A stretch of 24,152 bases of DNA, taken from IMG/VR virus record IMGVR_UViG_3300030044_000081, positions 1-24,152 of that record; one strand, given 5' to 3'. The translations under genes and the position numbers were made by a program. Of this stretch, positions 2,941 to 16,366 are shown piece after piece. The notes below the pieces were generated by a model. That model did not search any database and was not told the DNA's origin. It saw nothing but the letters and a program-made list of their open reading frames with translations. Source of the stretch: a virus. Within the stretch, counting starts at the first letter, position 1; the number at the start of each line of letters is the position of its first letter.

Positions 2941-4254
2941 TCAGCCGTTCGCGATGTTGGAGACGGTCAGGTTGACCACGATCTGGTCGAACCCGCGCGC
3001 CGGGGTGAACGTCAGCGCCAGGCCGGCGTACTTTCCGATGGCGTAATCGCCCGGTTCCTGCACCACGTAGGTGGAGAACGGAATCGCGGTGACGGTCGGC
3101 GGCGGCGAGTTCAGCACCATGCCGAAGGCGATGCCGTTGTTGACCACCTGTTGCGAGACCTTCTGCAACTGGTTGATGCCGGCCTGGTTGTAGTACAGCG
3201 GATTCGTCGGGCTGTTCGACCCGTTGATGACCGCGGCCGACAGCGCCATGTCCTGGTTGATGATCATCCAGTCCACGGAGTACCAGAAGTTCCACGGGTT
3301 CAGGTCGCCGTACACGCCGTTGACAATCAGCGTGTTCGAGATGCCGCCCTCGGCGCCCGTGCCCACCCAGTTCAGGCCAGCGGCCTTGTAGGTGGTCGCG
3401 TTGGAAGGCGACAGCGTGTAGGGCGTGACGCCGAACAGGTAGCGGTATTCCAGCGGCGCCACGAGGTTGACCGGGCCGGGATCGGCCGACAACTGGGCGT
3501 AGAGCATCGCCGCGGCGCTGAACTCCGTGGTCGGCGCGCTCGGGGACTGGAGCACGAGGTACGCGGCCTTCGTCGGGATCGTCGCCCAGGCCGAATAGGT
3601 CGCCGCCGTCGTCGTGACCAGGAAGTAGGTCGCCGAGGTCGGCGAATCGTACTGGCGGAACAGCGTCGGCGCCGTGGTCTCCGTGTCCCACGTCATCGGC
3701 ACGAGGTAGGCGTAGAACTGCTTGGCCGGGTTCGTCAGGTACGTCGAGAGCGCCGTGACGCCAGCCGCCGGGGTGCCGGCGCCCAGTTCCAGGACGTAGA
3801 CCGCCTGCGTGTTGCCCTGCGCGAAGAACGTGTCGCCCATCGCGGTGAGTTCGCTCACCGAGTCAAGCTGGAACGTGCCGAGCGTGGTTTCCGAGCCGGG
3901 GTTCGACGCGAGCGGGTAGGTGAACGTGGTGGCGTTCACTTCCGTGCAGGCAAACGTGCCGTTGTAGCCACTCGGGACGACGCCGGAGATTTGCCCCTGA
4001 ACGGCGCCGCCGGCCGGGATGCCGTGCGCCGCTGCGGTCACGACGGTGACGACGCTGGACGTCCAGGAGATGGACGAAATGGCAATCGGCGCCTTCAGCA
4101 GAGCGGTCAGGTCGGCATTCTGCGTCAGCAGCGCCGAAGTGCCCGCCGCCAGCGTCGTGCCGCCCTGCGAGATCAGCGCGCCAGTGCGCTGGAGTTGGCT
4201 GGGTGCCGAAGCCACAGCCTCACTCACGTTGACGATGACGATGGACGTGCTCAT
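2941..4254 (-). CDS. Contractile tail sheath protein
   Basis: The 437-aa protein starts MSTSIVIVNVSEAV, a beta strand typical of the N-terminal linker arm of sheath subunits, and is followed by the tail tube gene. Residues about 60-128 form a beta-rich insertion of the HGIPAG...SGYNGT...TFTYPL type, a module found in many phage virion proteins and probably surface-exposed. The C-terminal third is Gln/Asn/Ile-rich with the regular strand pattern of the sheath core that contacts the tube. The ATG at 4254 follows a short GAGGG element. Sheath polymerises around the tube and contracts at infection; its presence identifies the phage as a myovirus. Confidence 0.85.
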   Translation of the reverse strand: MSTSIVIVNVSEAVASAPSQLQRTGALISQGGTTLAAGTSALLTQNADLTALLKAPIAISSISWTSSVVTVVTAAAHGIPAGGAVQGQISGVVPSGYNGTFACTEVNATTFTYPLASNPGSETTLGTFQLDSVSELTAMGDTFFAQGNTQAVYVLELGAGTPAAGVTALSTYLTNPAKQFYAYLVPMTWDTETTAPTLFRQYDSPTSATYFLVTTTAATYSAWATIPTKAAYLVLQSPSAPTTEFSAAAMLYAQLSADPGPVNLVAPLEYRYLFGVTPYTLSPSNATTYKAAGLNWVGTGAEGGISNTLIVNGVYGDLNPWNFWYSVDWMIINQDMALSAAVINGSNSPTNPLYYNQAGINQLQKVSQQVVNNGIAFGMVLNSPPPTVTAIPFSTYVVQEPGDYAIGKYAGLALTFTPARGFDQIVVNLTVSNIANG

Positions 4255-4269
4255 GGGCTAGGCCCTCGC

Positions 4270-4650
4270 TTACTGGTAGCTCAGGGAAATCACGCCCGCC
4301 GTGCCGACAAGCAGGCACAGGCCATTCGTGAGCGGGAAATCGACGTCGTAGATGCCGGCCGTCTGCGGGATGGAGAACACGAGGTTCGAGGCCGCGGCGG
4401 CGCCCGAGGTGGCCGAATCGTAGATCGCGCTGGTCGCGCTCGCGGCGGTGTTGACGATCACCTTGTTGATCCGGCGGGCCGTGGCCGATACCAGCTTGAC
4501 CGCCGCCGCCGTGTTGTTCAGCGATGACTTGTTGCCCTGGCCGATCAGCAGCGCGCCGACGGTATCGGTCACCAGCGGGGCTTGGATGTTGCCGGTGTTG
4601 CTCGCATTGGGCTTGACCGCTGCGGATACGAGAAGGGCGTTTTGACCCAT
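4270..4650 (-). CDS. Small virion protein of unknown function, upstream of sheath
   Basis: The 126-aa protein is rich in Ala, Ser, Thr, Val and Asn with alternating hydrophobic residues, suggesting an all-beta fold. It has no Cys except one near the end (GLCLLVG) and no recognisable catalytic motif. The ATG at 4650 is preceded by a GAAGGAA Shine-Dalgarno. It sits between the neck gene at 5689 and the sheath, so a structural role such as a neck, collar or decoration subunit is likely, but I do not recognise the family. Confidence 0.7.
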   Translation of the reverse strand: MGQNALLVSAAVKPNASNTGNIQAPLVTDTVGALLIGQGNKSSLNNTAAAVKLVSATARRINKVIVNTAASATSAIYDSATSGAAAASNLVFSIPQTAGIYDVDFPLTNGLCLLVGTAGVISLSYQ

Positions 4651-13341: not shown

Positions 13342-14655
13342 CTAGTGGCCCGCACCGTCACCCAGACCCAGCGAGACGCCGTAAACGTAGGTGTCGTACA
13401 GGTCGTCAGGGCGCTTGGCGGAGTCCGGGTCGCCGATGCGGTAGCCCATGACCTGGGACACCAGGTGATTCTTCGTGACGCCCTTGTAGCGCACCGTCTT
13501 GTCGTAGGCGTAGGCGCTGATCCCGATTTCGCCCCGGAAGTGCGGCCCCGAGGCCATGAAGCCGCGACCATCCTTGCCCGCGCTCACAAGGTCTGTATCG
13601 ATCGGCACGGCGCGCCAGCCGCGCCTATGCGCCTGCTGAAGCAGGATCGTGCCTGATGCCTTGTCCTCGATGAATGGCGGCATGGCACCTTGCCGCGCCC
13701 CGGTGGCCTCGCCCAGTTCCTTCAGCCGGGCGTACACGGTCGGAAGCCATTCCTCCAGGATCGCGCCCTTGATCTGAATGATGTCCCAGTCCAGGATCGT
13801 CAGCTTGCGCTGGCCCGGCGGCGGGTGACGCTGCAGCGCGTAGAAGGTCACCGCCGTGCCGTCATGCTCCAGGCCGTCCTTGACCGCCGAATCGATGACC
13901 GCAAACACGGTGTCGCATTTCTTCGGGTACGGGAAGGCTTGGCCTTTCTCGTCAAGCCACTTGTCCAGCGCGAAGAACGCTTTGCCGCGCCAGTCGATGA
14001 ACACAGCCTCGTATTCCTGGGCGTGGACGTCGGGATCGGTCTTGTCGCGCAGGTCAGCCAGCGCCTCGGCGTTCAGGTGCGGGTTCAGGTGCGTGGGGAT
14101 GTGGAACTCGGTGAACCCCTGGCTTGGATCGGTGCAAATCAGGTAGAACCACGATTCCTCGCTTGCCCCCTTGGGGGTGCCAGCCACGTAGCACGATCCA
14201 CCCGTGTCCAGCAAAGTCGGCTCAATGGCCTGCTGGAAAATCTCTTTCAGGCCCTTGAGGACTAGGCCGGCCTCGTCGATGATGACCCGGTGATAGTGGC
14301 GCGAGCGGCCGGCGTCCGGGTTGTTCAGCGTCCAGAATTCAATCGACCCGCCGCCCTCAAGCTCAATGATGCCGTCCGTTCGACTGGCGCTGATCACGAG
14401 GTCTTTGACCCGCTTCAGGATTCGCTTGTAGGACGGAAGCAGCAGCTTGTAATCCGGGGCGAACCATCCGACAAGCTCGCCCTTGATGGCCCAGTTCGCG
14501 GCCATCTCCTCAAGCATAGTGGTTTTCCCGTAGCGCCGCCCCGCCCGCAGGACGATCCGCGCTCGCTTCTGCCCCTTGATCGCCCGATAGATCCTCGCCT
14601 GGTCTGCGTGGAACTTGATGAACTGGACGCGCGTTTCAGCAGCCATCCGGGCCAT
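13342..14655 (-). CDS. terL: Terminase large subunit
   Basis: The 437-aa packaging motor has both expected domains. ATPase: Walker A GRRYGKTT at 39-46, Walker B VIIDE at 124-128 with Glu128 catalytic, and coupling motif AGTPKG at 158-163. Nuclease (RNase H-like): Asp255 in FAVIDSA, FIEDKASG with Glu330/Asp331, and a C-terminal Asp cluster (417-421, DDLYD). These are all the acidic positions needed for metal-dependent cleavage. The gene overlaps the small terminase by 20 nt and precedes the portal. Length is normal for the family, with no sign of interruption. Confidence 0.96.
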   Translation of the reverse strand: MARMAAETRVQFIKFHADQARIYRAIKGQKRARIVLRAGRRYGKTTMLEEMAANWAIKGELVGWFAPDYKLLLPSYKRILKRVKDLVISASRTDGIIELEGGGSIEFWTLNNPDAGRSRHYHRVIIDEAGLVLKGLKEIFQQAIEPTLLDTGGSCYVAGTPKGASEESWFYLICTDPSQGFTEFHIPTHLNPHLNAEALADLRDKTDPDVHAQEYEAVFIDWRGKAFFALDKWLDEKGQAFPYPKKCDTVFAVIDSAVKDGLEHDGTAVTFYALQRHPPPGQRKLTILDWDIIQIKGAILEEWLPTVYARLKELGEATGARQGAMPPFIEDKASGTILLQQAHRRGWRAVPIDTDLVSAGKDGRGFMASGPHFRGEIGISAYAYDKTVRYKGVTKNHLVSQVMGYRIGDPDSAKRPDDLYDTYVYGVSLGLGDGAGH

Positions 14656-15175
14656 CGATCACGATCACTTTGCGCTCCGGGGCGGCGTTGGCAGCCTCGG
14701 CGGCCATGCGGTCTTGGCTGGCCTTCAGCAGCGTGGAAGGGATCACCATCGCGTCATTACCCGCCTGCGTCATCGCCCTGAAAGCGCGGACGGCATCCTT
14801 TGATCGCTCGTCCTTGAACGGGTTCGCATCATCAATGAACTGCTTCTGCTCCGATGCAAGGTTATGCATGTGCATCGAGTTCCTGGCGGCGATGTCGGCC
14901 GTCTGGAGGTAAATATCCTCCAGAACCGATAACCGATCCCTGACGGAAATAACGTGCACCCTGTCGGAAACCGGGATCGCCTTGAAAGCTCGCTCCGAGC
15001 TAACCATTTGATTTGCAACGTCTTTTACAGCGGCCACCCGGGCACTGATCTTTTCCGACATGGCCGCTCTGCTCACCTGGAACTCGGCTGACAGCTTATT
15101 GATGCTCTCGCCCGCGAGGTGCCTGCGGATCACCTCGTCCCACTGCTTGTCGGATAGTTTGCTTGGTCGGCCCAT
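14636..15175 (-). CDS. terS: Terminase small subunit
   Basis: The 179-aa protein begins MGRPSKLSDKQWDEVIRRHLAGESINKLSAEF and continues into VSRAAMSEKI. This is a helix-turn-helix (residues about 10-45) of the kind small terminases use to bind the pac or cos region. The middle is long helical oligomerisation sequence and the C terminus is short and mixed. It overlaps terL by 20 nt. The structured non-coding stretch immediately upstream (15176-15541) is a candidate recognition site. Confidence 0.9.
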   Translation of the reverse strand: MGRPSKLSDKQWDEVIRRHLAGESINKLSAEFQVSRAAMSEKISARVAAVKDVANQMVSSERAFKAIPVSDRVHVISVRDRLSVLEDIYLQTADIAARNSMHMHNLASEQKQFIDDANPFKDERSKDAVRAFRAMTQAGNDAMVIPSTLLKASQDRMAAEAANAAPERKVIVIDGPDGC

Positions 15176-15277
15176 GAGGGGATTCTATGGCCGAGCGGCG
15201 GCATGCGCCATGATCTTGACCTCCCCGATCCTGCGGGGGAAACGCTTCCGGCTTTCGCCTCGGACTGGATTCGAACC

Positions 15278-15306
15278 AGTCTCTCGCCCACCAGGGTCTC
15301 GGTCAA
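15278..15306 (-). promoter_or_regulatory. Possible promoter upstream of terS
   Basis: On the minus strand TTGACC (15306-15301) is followed after exactly 17 nt by GAGACT (15283-15278). This resembles the genome's other promoters (TTGACN, 17 nt, GANACT), but it lacks the TATCGG/CCGATA operator and its -10 matches the consensus at only three positions. It also overlaps hairpin-forming sequence, so it may be fortuitous. Confidence 0.3.
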
Positions 15307-15399
15307 CGAGCGGGAATCGAACCCGCATGCTCAGTTGGCGTCAGATTCGACACCGGAATGATCCACTCCCAGCGATCCAGGCAGACAATCCCTCGTCGA
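15303..15399 (-). ncRNA. tRNA-like element (non-canonical cloverleaf)
   Basis: Minus-strand TCGACGA (15399-15393) can pair over 7 bp, with one G-T, with TCGTTGA (15309-15303). TCGTTGA directly follows a perfect T-arm, GCGGG-TTCGATT-CCCGC (15326-15310). A short D-stem GAT/ATC with a GG-containing loop follows the 5' stem at the right distance. The middle is not normal: the best anticodon-arm candidate, CTGGGA/TTCCGG, has an 8-nt loop without the conserved T33, and an extra hairpin GGTGTC/GACGCC follows it. Total length of about 97 nt is long even for a class II tRNA. I read it as a degenerate tRNA or a tRNA mimic, not a functional decoder. Confidence 0.4.
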
Positions 15400-15541
15400 G
15401 CGTGAGGTGCCGTCCCGCCGATGAAGCACCACGTAAGCACTGGGTGATATTCATGGCGACGATGATGCCAGCGGCTCCGGCTTGCGCGGATTGCTCGCGC
15501 GGCCATCCCGGCCGCGGCCCGGCGCTTGTGCTGGCGGAGGT

Positions 15542-16015
15542 TCATGGCAACTCGATGGTTTCGCCAAACCGGCTGGCGACGTAGGCGCGCATGGCGGCGA
15601 TGAGGGGCGTCTGGCCGGTAACTATGGGCTTTGATTTCTCACACGGGATAAGCCCCTCCCATTCCGTTTCGGCATCAACGCCGGAAAACCATTCCACGGT
15701 TGTGCGAATCCATCGCCCATCGATCCGCTCCGCCGGGGCGCCCTGGTGAAGCGCAATCCACTCCCGCTCGATGATTGGCCCACCAATGGCCCAAACAGTC
15801 GATGGCGAGTAGTACTGCGGGTCTTGGCGCATCGGGTTGTTCGGGCGCAGCATGCAGTAAGACTTGCCGTCATCCTCCCTCAGAAACCACCCCGAAAACG
15901 TCGGGTCGAGCGTCAGCGTGGGGTAGTGCTCGTGCGCGGTCTTCCACTCGCCGCATTCAGCGACGGCGGCGTCCAGCAGGGCGCCGGTCAGGTCTGCTAC
16001 TCGGTAGGTTGTCAT
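15542..16015 (-). CDS. ninX: NinX-family protein (DUF2591)
   Basis: I chose the ATG at 16015, giving 157 aa; the frame continues upstream to 16123 but through the structured leader, and AGAGAGACAACG immediately precedes this ATG. The N terminus VADLTGALLDAAVAECGEW, the central YSPSTVWAIGGPIIEREWIAL and the C-terminal TGQTPLIAAMRAYVASRFGETIELP are the hallmark blocks of DUF2591, a small phage family found in nin regions and of unknown biochemical role. It lies between the late-leader promoter and the terminase genes, a position typical for nin genes. Confidence 0.82.
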   Translation of the reverse strand: MTTYRVADLTGALLDAAVAECGEWKTAHEHYPTLTLDPTFSGWFLREDDGKSYCMLRPNNPMRQDPQYYSPSTVWAIGGPIIEREWIALHQGAPAERIDGRWIRTTVEWFSGVDAETEWEGLIPCEKSKPIVTGQTPLIAAMRAYVASRFGETIELP

Positions 16016-16037: not shown

Positions 16038-16119
16038 GGGTGAGTCCTGGTGGAGTCGAACCACCCGCGCCATTCAGCTTTCGCTGGTGCCCGGCGTCCC
16101 ACGTCCGGAAGACTCACCC
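16038..16119 (-). ncRNA. Structured leader element with T-arm (tRNA-like)
   Basis: Nine perfect base pairs (GGGTGAGTC at 16038-16046 with GACTCACCC at 16111-16119) close an 82-nt element. Inside, on the minus strand, are CCGG...CCGG with a 10-nt GG-containing loop (D-arm-like), a CAGC-GAAA-GCTG tetraloop hairpin where an anticodon arm would be, and a perfect T-arm GGTGG-TTCGACT-CCACC. The fold is tRNA-like in outline but cannot decode. It lies 22 nt upstream of the NinX start and within the predicted transcript from the promoter at 16361. Confidence 0.5.
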
Positions 16120-16251
16120 TCAAGTCTGGAACCCATCCCGATAGGGGATTTCGTCTCGCTGCTGGCTGCTCAGCACTTAGGCGCCTACGTTGGGTGCTTA
16201 GCAGCGTTCGCCGTCTAGAGCCCCAGACTTGAAGGCCCCGTCTCTCCGGGG
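16120..16251 (-). ncRNA. Long multi-branched hairpin in the late leader
   Basis: TCAAGTCTGG (16120-16129) pairs perfectly over 10 bp with CCAGACTTGA (16223-16232). Inside it lie ATCCC/GGGAT (16135-16149) and a 12-bp arm with one mismatch, GCTGCTCAGCAC (16165-16176) with GTGCTTAGCAGC (16194-16205), whose loop carries the palindrome TAGGCGCCTA. A second copy of CGCTGCT (16157-16163) can pair instead with AGCAGCG (16200-16206), so two folds compete. A CCCCG/CGGGG hairpin (16236-16251) precedes it in transcription order. No coding frame explains this; it is probably a functional RNA. Confidence 0.55.
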
Positions 16252-16337
16252 TGTCACTGACGCTAGTTAGGTCGGCGAGTTCTCTGCTGGCCTATCTCGC
16301 TTTTCAGTCCAGCAGCCCCTTCGCGCTCAGTGATTGC
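16252..16337 (-). other. Initial transcribed region downstream of the late-leader promoter
   Basis: Between the -10 element and the multi-branched element there is one more hairpin, CTGCTGG (16284-16290) with CCAGCAG (16309-16315), with an 18-nt loop. No gene is seen. Together with the two elements above it makes a leader of about 315 nt before NinX. Confidence 0.5.
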
Positions 16338-16366
16338 AGTATCGGTGATCCGATAGTACAGGTCAA
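16338..16366 (-). promoter_or_regulatory. Promoter with perfect operator, leading into NinX/terminase
   Basis: Minus-strand TTGACC (16366-16361), 17-nt spacer, GATACT (16343-16338). The spacer and -10 contain the perfect palindrome TATCGG-ATCA-CCGATA (16355-16340), whose second half overlaps the -10. The design is the same as at the two plus-strand promoters and the Cro-like gene promoter. It starts just after the DUF1364 stop (16374) and would transcribe the structured leader, NinX and the terminase genes. Confidence 0.75.

Follow-up and report, generated by a model that had tools for sequence, protein, structure and literature searches.

In phage HK022, put suppresses transcription termination without the help of any protein, by way of the zinc-binding domain of the beta' subunit of RNA polymerase. 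The packaging RNA of phi29-type phages is encoded together with the packaging ATPase, and is needed by it. In form, put is a protein-free leader of two stem-loops, ~70 nt in all, situated either just after the transcription start site or ~270 nt after it (PMC9378689). The bacterial Y RNA YrlA carries a tRNA-like domain that is bound by PNPase and modified by DusA and TruB (PMC8394870), and the phage Y RNAs of a Listeria phage have been proposed to be highly abundant transcripts (PMC12282133). ROOL and GOLLD are structured phage RNAs, too, some of them near tRNA genes, and their function is unknown (PMC12286853).

We analyzed 24,152 nt of phage DNA ('the window'; IMG/VR record IMGVR_UViG_3300030044_000081, positions 1–24,152). 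A sequence-only reading of it had singled out a chain of hairpins at 16038–16337 as a structured RNA heading the late genes, 3' of an operator-controlled promoter, perhaps a cis-acting antiterminator like put, perhaps a free small RNA. All of the named pairings are there, on the minus strand, at the positions it gave. The placement stands as well, and relatives share the layout, but the interval proves to be only part of a larger region: related phages have conserved a structured RNA region of which these hairpins form the first half, and the second half, 15212–15329, lies outside that interval, past the NinX gene.

The leader

The leader proper (16038–16332) has an HNH gene on one side and the terminase genes on the other. 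In order of transcription, the features are:

16338–16366, minus strand: promoter, with −35 TTGACC, a 17-nt spacer and −10 GATACT (from the sequence)
16355–16340, minus strand: operator inverted repeat TATCGG-ATCA-CCGATA, overlapping the −10 (from the sequence)
16255–16332, minus strand: leader part 1, a CACTGA/TCAGTG closing stem enclosing a CTGCTGG/CCAGCAG hairpin at 16315–16284 (sequence, folding)
16236–16251, minus strand: hp5-type hairpin CCCCG-GAGAGA-CGGGG, with TGACA just before it (from the sequence)
16120–16233, minus strand: module A, a 13-bp stem TCAAGTCTGGGGC/GTTCCAGACTTGA closing a junction (relatives, sequence)
16038–16119, minus strand: module B, a tRNA-like cloverleaf with an 11-bp acceptor (sequence, folding)
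15542–16015, minus strand: NinX gene, between the two RNA modules (PF10765, 1.8e-14; phrog_4389, 1.5e-24)

The sequence-only reading is right about the operator-controlled promoter, about NinX (by the PF10765 match), and about the tRNA-like character of the final fold, module B, where GGTGG-TTCGACT-CCACC forms a perfect T-arm. The stem that closes B, GGGTGAGTCTT/AGGACTCACCC (16119–16038), runs over 11 bp, more than the 9 of that reading.

Relatives (records are numbered L or G here) are arranged in the same way: HNH gene, promoter of the form TTGAC-N17/18-GATACT, leader with module A, TerS, TerL. The gene-free leader is ~315 nt long in the window and ~600–750 nt in L006, L014 and L020. Promoter and inverted repeat occur together in the window, L073/L014, L006 and L072/L020, and the repeat arms differ among them (TATCGG-CCGATA, TGTCGG-CCGATA, TATCC-GGATA). 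Elsewhere in the window, at 22312–22399 and 23086–23114, close to a Cro-like gene (PF14549) and a plus-strand promoter at 23086, there are operator-like repeats (TATCGG-N4-CCGGTA; TCTCGG-N4-CCGATA). They resemble the leader operator, and this likeness suggests that one regulator might serve several promoters of the window.

The whole leader folds to −133 kcal/mol against −115 ± 5.8 for shuffled sequences (z = −3.06; two of 100 shuffles did as well). The first two hairpins are weak on their own (16232–16320; z = −1.53), and most of the folding signal comes from modules A (16232–16120; z = −3.24) and B (z = −2.97). The hairpin at 16236–16251 is the sole one in the window capped by GAAAGA or GAGAGA; L072 has CCACG-GAAAGA-CGTGG at the equivalent position, and a comparable CACT/AGTGACACC to the closing stem of leader part 1. 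Among 29 relatives, 5 also have a hairpin of the hp5 type after helix a of the 3' module, described below, where 0.004 would be expected per stretch.

Module A

The stem of module A, TCAAGTCTGG/CCAGACTTGA at 16232–16120, closes a junction made of two near-invariant strands, CTCTAGACGG and CGAGACRA, and two variable arms. We gathered relatives via the large terminase, and then more via a module A pattern; about nine related soil-phage records have the module. Its carriers are the window, L005, L007, L043/L032, L006, L014, L017, L019/L009 and L020; the seven records searched in full have a single copy apiece, and the module lies between the HNH gene and TerS. The window's copy scores 90.5 bits with the R2 model, which was built with that copy included. 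Eight contigs found with a looser pattern (L075–L082) lack the A stem and were rejected.

The stem is mostly invariant. At register 0, 97% of its cells are paired, against no more than 53% when the strands are slid; the window has two G-U wobbles, and L043 a double compensatory change, G-C to U-A. Covariation is no better than in shuffles (108 of 500 for double changes), so module A is carried by sequence conservation, instead. Compensatory changes in related phages, on which the sequence-only reading had staked its leader, thus come in the A stem to one double change, within the range of shuffles, whereas 15212–15329 covaries strongly.

Upstream of module A, L005, L007, L017 and L019 have genes that contain long tandem codon repeats (AYADANA-like, GYGDG-like). 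A further conserved element, GCATGAGCTA...CGAGAAGTCC...GGGTGTGG-AGGGGGAAAGCT, is found in L006 (~2380–2480) and L072 (reverse strand, ~1060–1160), and also 3' of module A in L014 and L019; it takes the place that the tRNA mimic has in L005, and is perhaps a variant without T-loops.

Module B and the search for tRNAs

Module B has a D-like arm, CCGG-ACGTGGGACG-CCGG, with GGG in its loop, and a GNRA-capped middle arm where a tRNA has its anticodon arm; there is no anticodon loop. It scores 21.9 bits with the Rfam tRNA-Sec model (threshold 47), and its interior was seen only in the window's own phage. The 24-kb window contains three perfect T-arms, all on the minus strand and within 800 nt of each other (16065–16049, 15326–15310 and 15280–15264), against a mean of 0.06 and a maximum of two in 200 shuffles. 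Two of the three lie outside 16038–16337, and these led us to the 3' module.

No tRNA or tmRNA gene was found in the window by ARAGORN (0 genes) or Rfam (RF00005, tmRNA), nor did we identify a tmRNA-type tag reading frame; what relaxed ARAGORN settings returned was noise. At gathering thresholds no Rfam family matched the window or 19 loci, GOLLD and ROOL included, and at relaxed E-values neither of these two appeared in the window region, L021, L005 or L048. The relaxed Rfam matches, which we set aside, comprised only tRNA-Sec, YrlA, tRNA-like plastid elements and chance matches.

The 3' module

The second half of the region, module CD, is made up as follows, and is followed by the packaging genes:

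15212–15329, minus strand: 3' module CD (R1 model, family alignments A1/A2, covariation)
15310–15326, minus strand: T1, T-arm GCGGG-TTCGATT-CCCGC (T-arm scan, alignment)
15301–15306, minus strand: helix a, 5' strand TTGACC (GACC/GGUC pairing with 15221–15218)
15264–15280, minus strand: T2, second T-arm ACTGG-TTCGAAT-CCAGT (covariation)
15250–15259, minus strand: hp3, middle hairpin GGC-GAAA-GCC (alignment, covariation)
15223–15238, minus strand: hp4, D-arm-like hairpin with GG in the loop (covariation)
15216–15221, minus strand: helix a, 3' strand GGTCAA (alignment, covariation)
14636–15175, minus strand: probable TerS, its product with an HTH domain, directly downstream of CD (PF02796, 7.8e-9; TerL-adjacent homologs in relatives)
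13342–14655, minus strand: TerL (phrog_2, 2.8e-27)

T1 stands outside, and helix a encloses T2, hp3 and hp4. The hp4 loop has GG, often GGUA, as D-loops do, and a canonical T2 loop goes with this GG in 18 of 19 cases, against none of three with non-canonical loops (L038, L042, L029; p = 0.0026, for loops scored by hand after inspection). From the two T-arms and the D-like arm we infer that CD imitates the elbow of transfer RNA.

The pairings are upheld by the family as a whole. In 27 sequences, 84.7% of cells are paired, against 71.6% in shuffles, and the covariation score is 0.337 against 0.131, a value that none of 500 shuffles attained and that drops to at most 0.15 when columns are slid, even by one. 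Helix a changes in concert (GGCC/GGCC, GACC/GGUC, UGCC/GGCA, CACC/GGUG, AACC/GGUU); four of the five T2 pairs and all five hp4 pairs have changes on both sides; and hp3 (GGGC/GCCC in L005, GGUC/GACC in L014) and T1 (GCCGG/CCGGC in L025, GCGGA/UCCGC in L014) vary likewise. Without a structure to start from, RNAalifold arrives at T1, helix a, T2 and hp4. The T1 loop, the T1 3' strand and CCGAG were fixed in the search pattern, which accounts for part of their invariance; the L014 copy, with its compensated T1 pair, came later, from the covariance model and not from the pattern.

Pattern searches place CD in ~29 distinct phage loci, and the family comes to ~30 phage records with one copy each. 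Of 35 phage records searched with the covariance model, 30 have a copy, and none of them more than one. Since the records were mostly picked through the CD pattern, the proportion says nothing about prevalence; the single copy number is informative. The window's CD scores 92.3 bits (E = 2.3e-22) with R1, a model that has the window among its 16 source sequences. A blastn search adds Pseudomonas phage Touem01, whose copy of CD is in a stretch of ~900 nt without genes. The same stretch (L021, 3609–3710) has a further T-arm, GCGGGTTCGAATCCCGT, a weak match to the model at 16.2 bits. Another blastn match, Pseudomonas phage Turba, has neither module; matches in Rhizobium and Croceicoccus plasmids are weak and confined to the T1 region (17.8 and 18.1 bits), and were not counted; and exact-pattern searches of the genome contigs collection gave no match. 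The family has no match in Rfam 15, and annotation pipelines that rely on Rfam will therefore miss CD, or could mis-call it as tRNA. CD is absent from Rfam 15 and from the literature searched, which is not proof of novelty.

Genomic context

The double T-arm element comes after module A in L005 and L007, with no gene between; its counterpart in the window, 15329–15212, comes after NinX, and T1 there runs into the end of a small ORF, 15303–15545. Leader and CD may be separate RNAs on account of this ORF and of the interposed NinX. The order of the modules varies, too: CD precedes A in L014, and A precedes CD in L005. Some records have A and no recognized CD (L006, L017, L019, L020), others CD and no A, and in four A-bearing lineages CD is within ~1 kb. 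In the A-bearing lineage, the region is always between the HNH and terminase genes.

CD lies beside TerS and TerL, on the same strand, in the window, L005, L014, L023, L046, L039 and L042. In G007, G008, G010, G011, G019, G021, G023 and Touem01 a long distance separates it from TerL, and the two are often on opposite strands; linkage is absent in about half of the records, and the separation is often tens of kb. An intrinsic terminator comes after CD in Touem01, L026 and L029, and in L034 the neighbor is a convergent endolysin gene. The idea that neighbors of 350–366 aa mark an integrase and attP was dropped after PHROG scans.

Other observations concern the surroundings. In the window (15182–15190), L005, L006, L014 and L072, CCATAGAAT precedes the start codon of TerS by ~10 nt; it is possibly a late promoter for a leaderless TerS, or a packaging site. 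L005 has three predicted tRNA genes (Gln, Tyr, Leu) directly before TerS at 4057–4440, and there a probable fourth that ARAGORN did not call. Just downstream of CD in L031 (5964–7064) is a gene for queuine tRNA-ribosyltransferase (phrog_887).

What the RNA might do

The reading we favor, a serious possibility that we stop short of calling probable, is that leader and CD are made as one operator-controlled transcript and that this RNA works in trans, its elbow bound by a host tRNA-handling protein. It would accumulate as a stable non-coding RNA; its T-loop/D-loop elbow would be held by the host protein, a parallel to the action of PNPase, TruB and DusA on the domain of YrlA; and it would tether, redirect or occupy that protein in the phage's favor. 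Redirecting decay, protecting phage RNA, or absorbing a tRNA-cleaving defense are possible ends. Modules A and B would be accessory 5' domains of the same RNA. The single copy, the variable context, the terminators, the convergent endolysin gene and the distance from TerL argue for a trans-acting RNA over a leader for any particular gene; the host partner is suggested by analogy with the tRNA-like domain of YrlA. The covariation of CD, the arm order it has in common with YrlA, its link to the elements of phage Gurke (below) and the pairing-off of canonical T2 loops with GG in hp4 also count in favor. Several things speak against the favored reading. The region's constant position in the A-bearing lineage would suit a cis element as well; NinX and the ORF that T1 overlaps interrupt the supposed joint transcript; and the A stem varies too little for covariation to prove its pairing.

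A bolder form of the idea, and a rather doubtful one, makes CD a class of phage non-coding RNA not described before, one that has two mimics of the tRNA elbow and captures a host tRNA-handling machine in trans. One elbow would be formed by T1 with the GGU strand, the other by T2 with hp4, once per genome in diverse phages; the target might be an exonuclease, a modification enzyme or a tRNA-cleaving defense; and modules A and B would be lineage-specific 5' additions under a Cro/CI-type operator.

That the leader acts in cis, like put, with the nascent RNA binding RNA polymerase to suppress polarity and allow terminator read-through into the late operon, we consider unlikely. In the window, L006, L014 and L020 the leader does come directly after the operator-controlled promoter and before the terminase genes, and put is itself a short protein-free leader that follows phage promoters (PMC9378689). 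But CD, the better conserved part, is not promoter-proximal in most phages; it precedes terminators or convergent genes, which is at odds with a cis-acting late antiterminator, and in about half of the records the terminase is a long way off. Module A, moreover, comes after an ORF, and not after a promoter, in L005 and L007. The free small RNA, which the sequence-only reading offered as its alternative, better fits the wider 3'-module family.

Less probable again is that CD is an orphan bacterial Y RNA, a diverged YrlA that works with host Ro60 (Rsr) and PNPase. The order T-arm, hairpin, D-arm is that of YrlA, and next to a TROVE/Ro60 gene Brevundimonas phage Gurke (L069, ON529850) has Y RNA-like elements, with YrlA matches of 38.8 and 31.4 bits; a T-arm/acceptor string, GCGGGUUCAACUCCCGCUCGUUGGC, is common to Gurke and the CD family. 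Yet none of 25 CD-family phage records has a TROVE/Ro60 gene (Gurke was the positive control), and the YrlA model gives the family ~8–16 bits, far under the gathering threshold of 69 for RF02553. Both results count against the favored reading as well, and because of them we do not claim CD as a Y RNA. CD also has a large insertion (T2, hp3, hp4) in place of a short capped stub. The Brevundimonas match was rejected as a member of the family, being Y RNA-like elements beside Ro60. In Gurke, at 1990–2560, an array of YrlA-like permuted tRNA mimics lies directly upstream of the TROVE/Ro60 gene, annotated as hypothetical; the last of them coincides in part with an annotated tRNA-Ser (GURKE_03100), apparently a mis-call.

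We give little credence to a packaging RNA, or a packaging-site element for the terminase (phi29 pRNA-like or pac-like): some copies of CD do adjoin TerS and TerL on the same strand, but those listed above as far from TerL do not, and L006, with a TerL 83% identical to that of the window, keeps module A without a recognizable CD. Even less likely, we think, is a 5' module of unrelated function, such as a ligand- or protein-sensing leader, that merely happens to be near a tRNA mimic; A and CD do occur in either order, and also apart, but the four lineages with CD within ~1 kb of A tell against it. Decayed tRNA genes or mis-read, functionless tRNA fragments are hardly credible—the T-arms resemble those of tRNA, and L005 has true tRNA genes before TerS, but covariation has largely refuted the idea already, and against it, too, are conserved strands foreign to tRNA, single copies in many phages, the lack of an anticodon arm and CCA end, and the negative ARAGORN and Rfam tRNA searches of the window.

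Should the favored reading hold, phages that have no Ro60 would carry a conserved copy of the part of tRNA that many cellular enzymes grasp, and CD would be an RNA bait for a host tRNA-handling protein that phages exploit or block. It would also offer a way to ask whether tRNA mimicry of the Y RNA type extends far beyond Ro60 operons. Touem01, a cultured carrier of CD and the only one with a known host, makes the idea testable.

Comparison with known systems

Like phi29 pRNA, some members of the CD family sit beside packaging genes, though many CD phages lack any terminase linkage. Like HK022 put, the leader is a protein-free structured RNA that follows a phage promoter. It starts with hairpins near the promoter, is longer than the two stem-loops and ~70 nt of put, multi-branched and multi-modular, and the best conserved module is often found at the ends of operons. 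CD is smaller than ROOL and GOLLD, is built on a T-arm-based elbow, and, as noted, matches no Rfam family. With tRNA, tRNA-Sec and tmRNA the region shares the T-arm, and module B has an acceptor elongated as in tRNA-Sec; it differs in having no anticodon loop and no CCA end, and in scoring under thresholds. CD also resembles YrlA (RF02553), phage Y RNAs next to Ro60 included. CD has an extra T-arm outside its acceptor-like helix and a three-arm insertion inside it, where YrlA and the Gurke elements have a short capped stub. The two RNAs are nonetheless of similar size, ~115–150 nt, and the arms within covarying helix a, T2-hp3-hp4, follow the same order—T, middle hairpin, D—as those of the Rfam consensus for YrlA.
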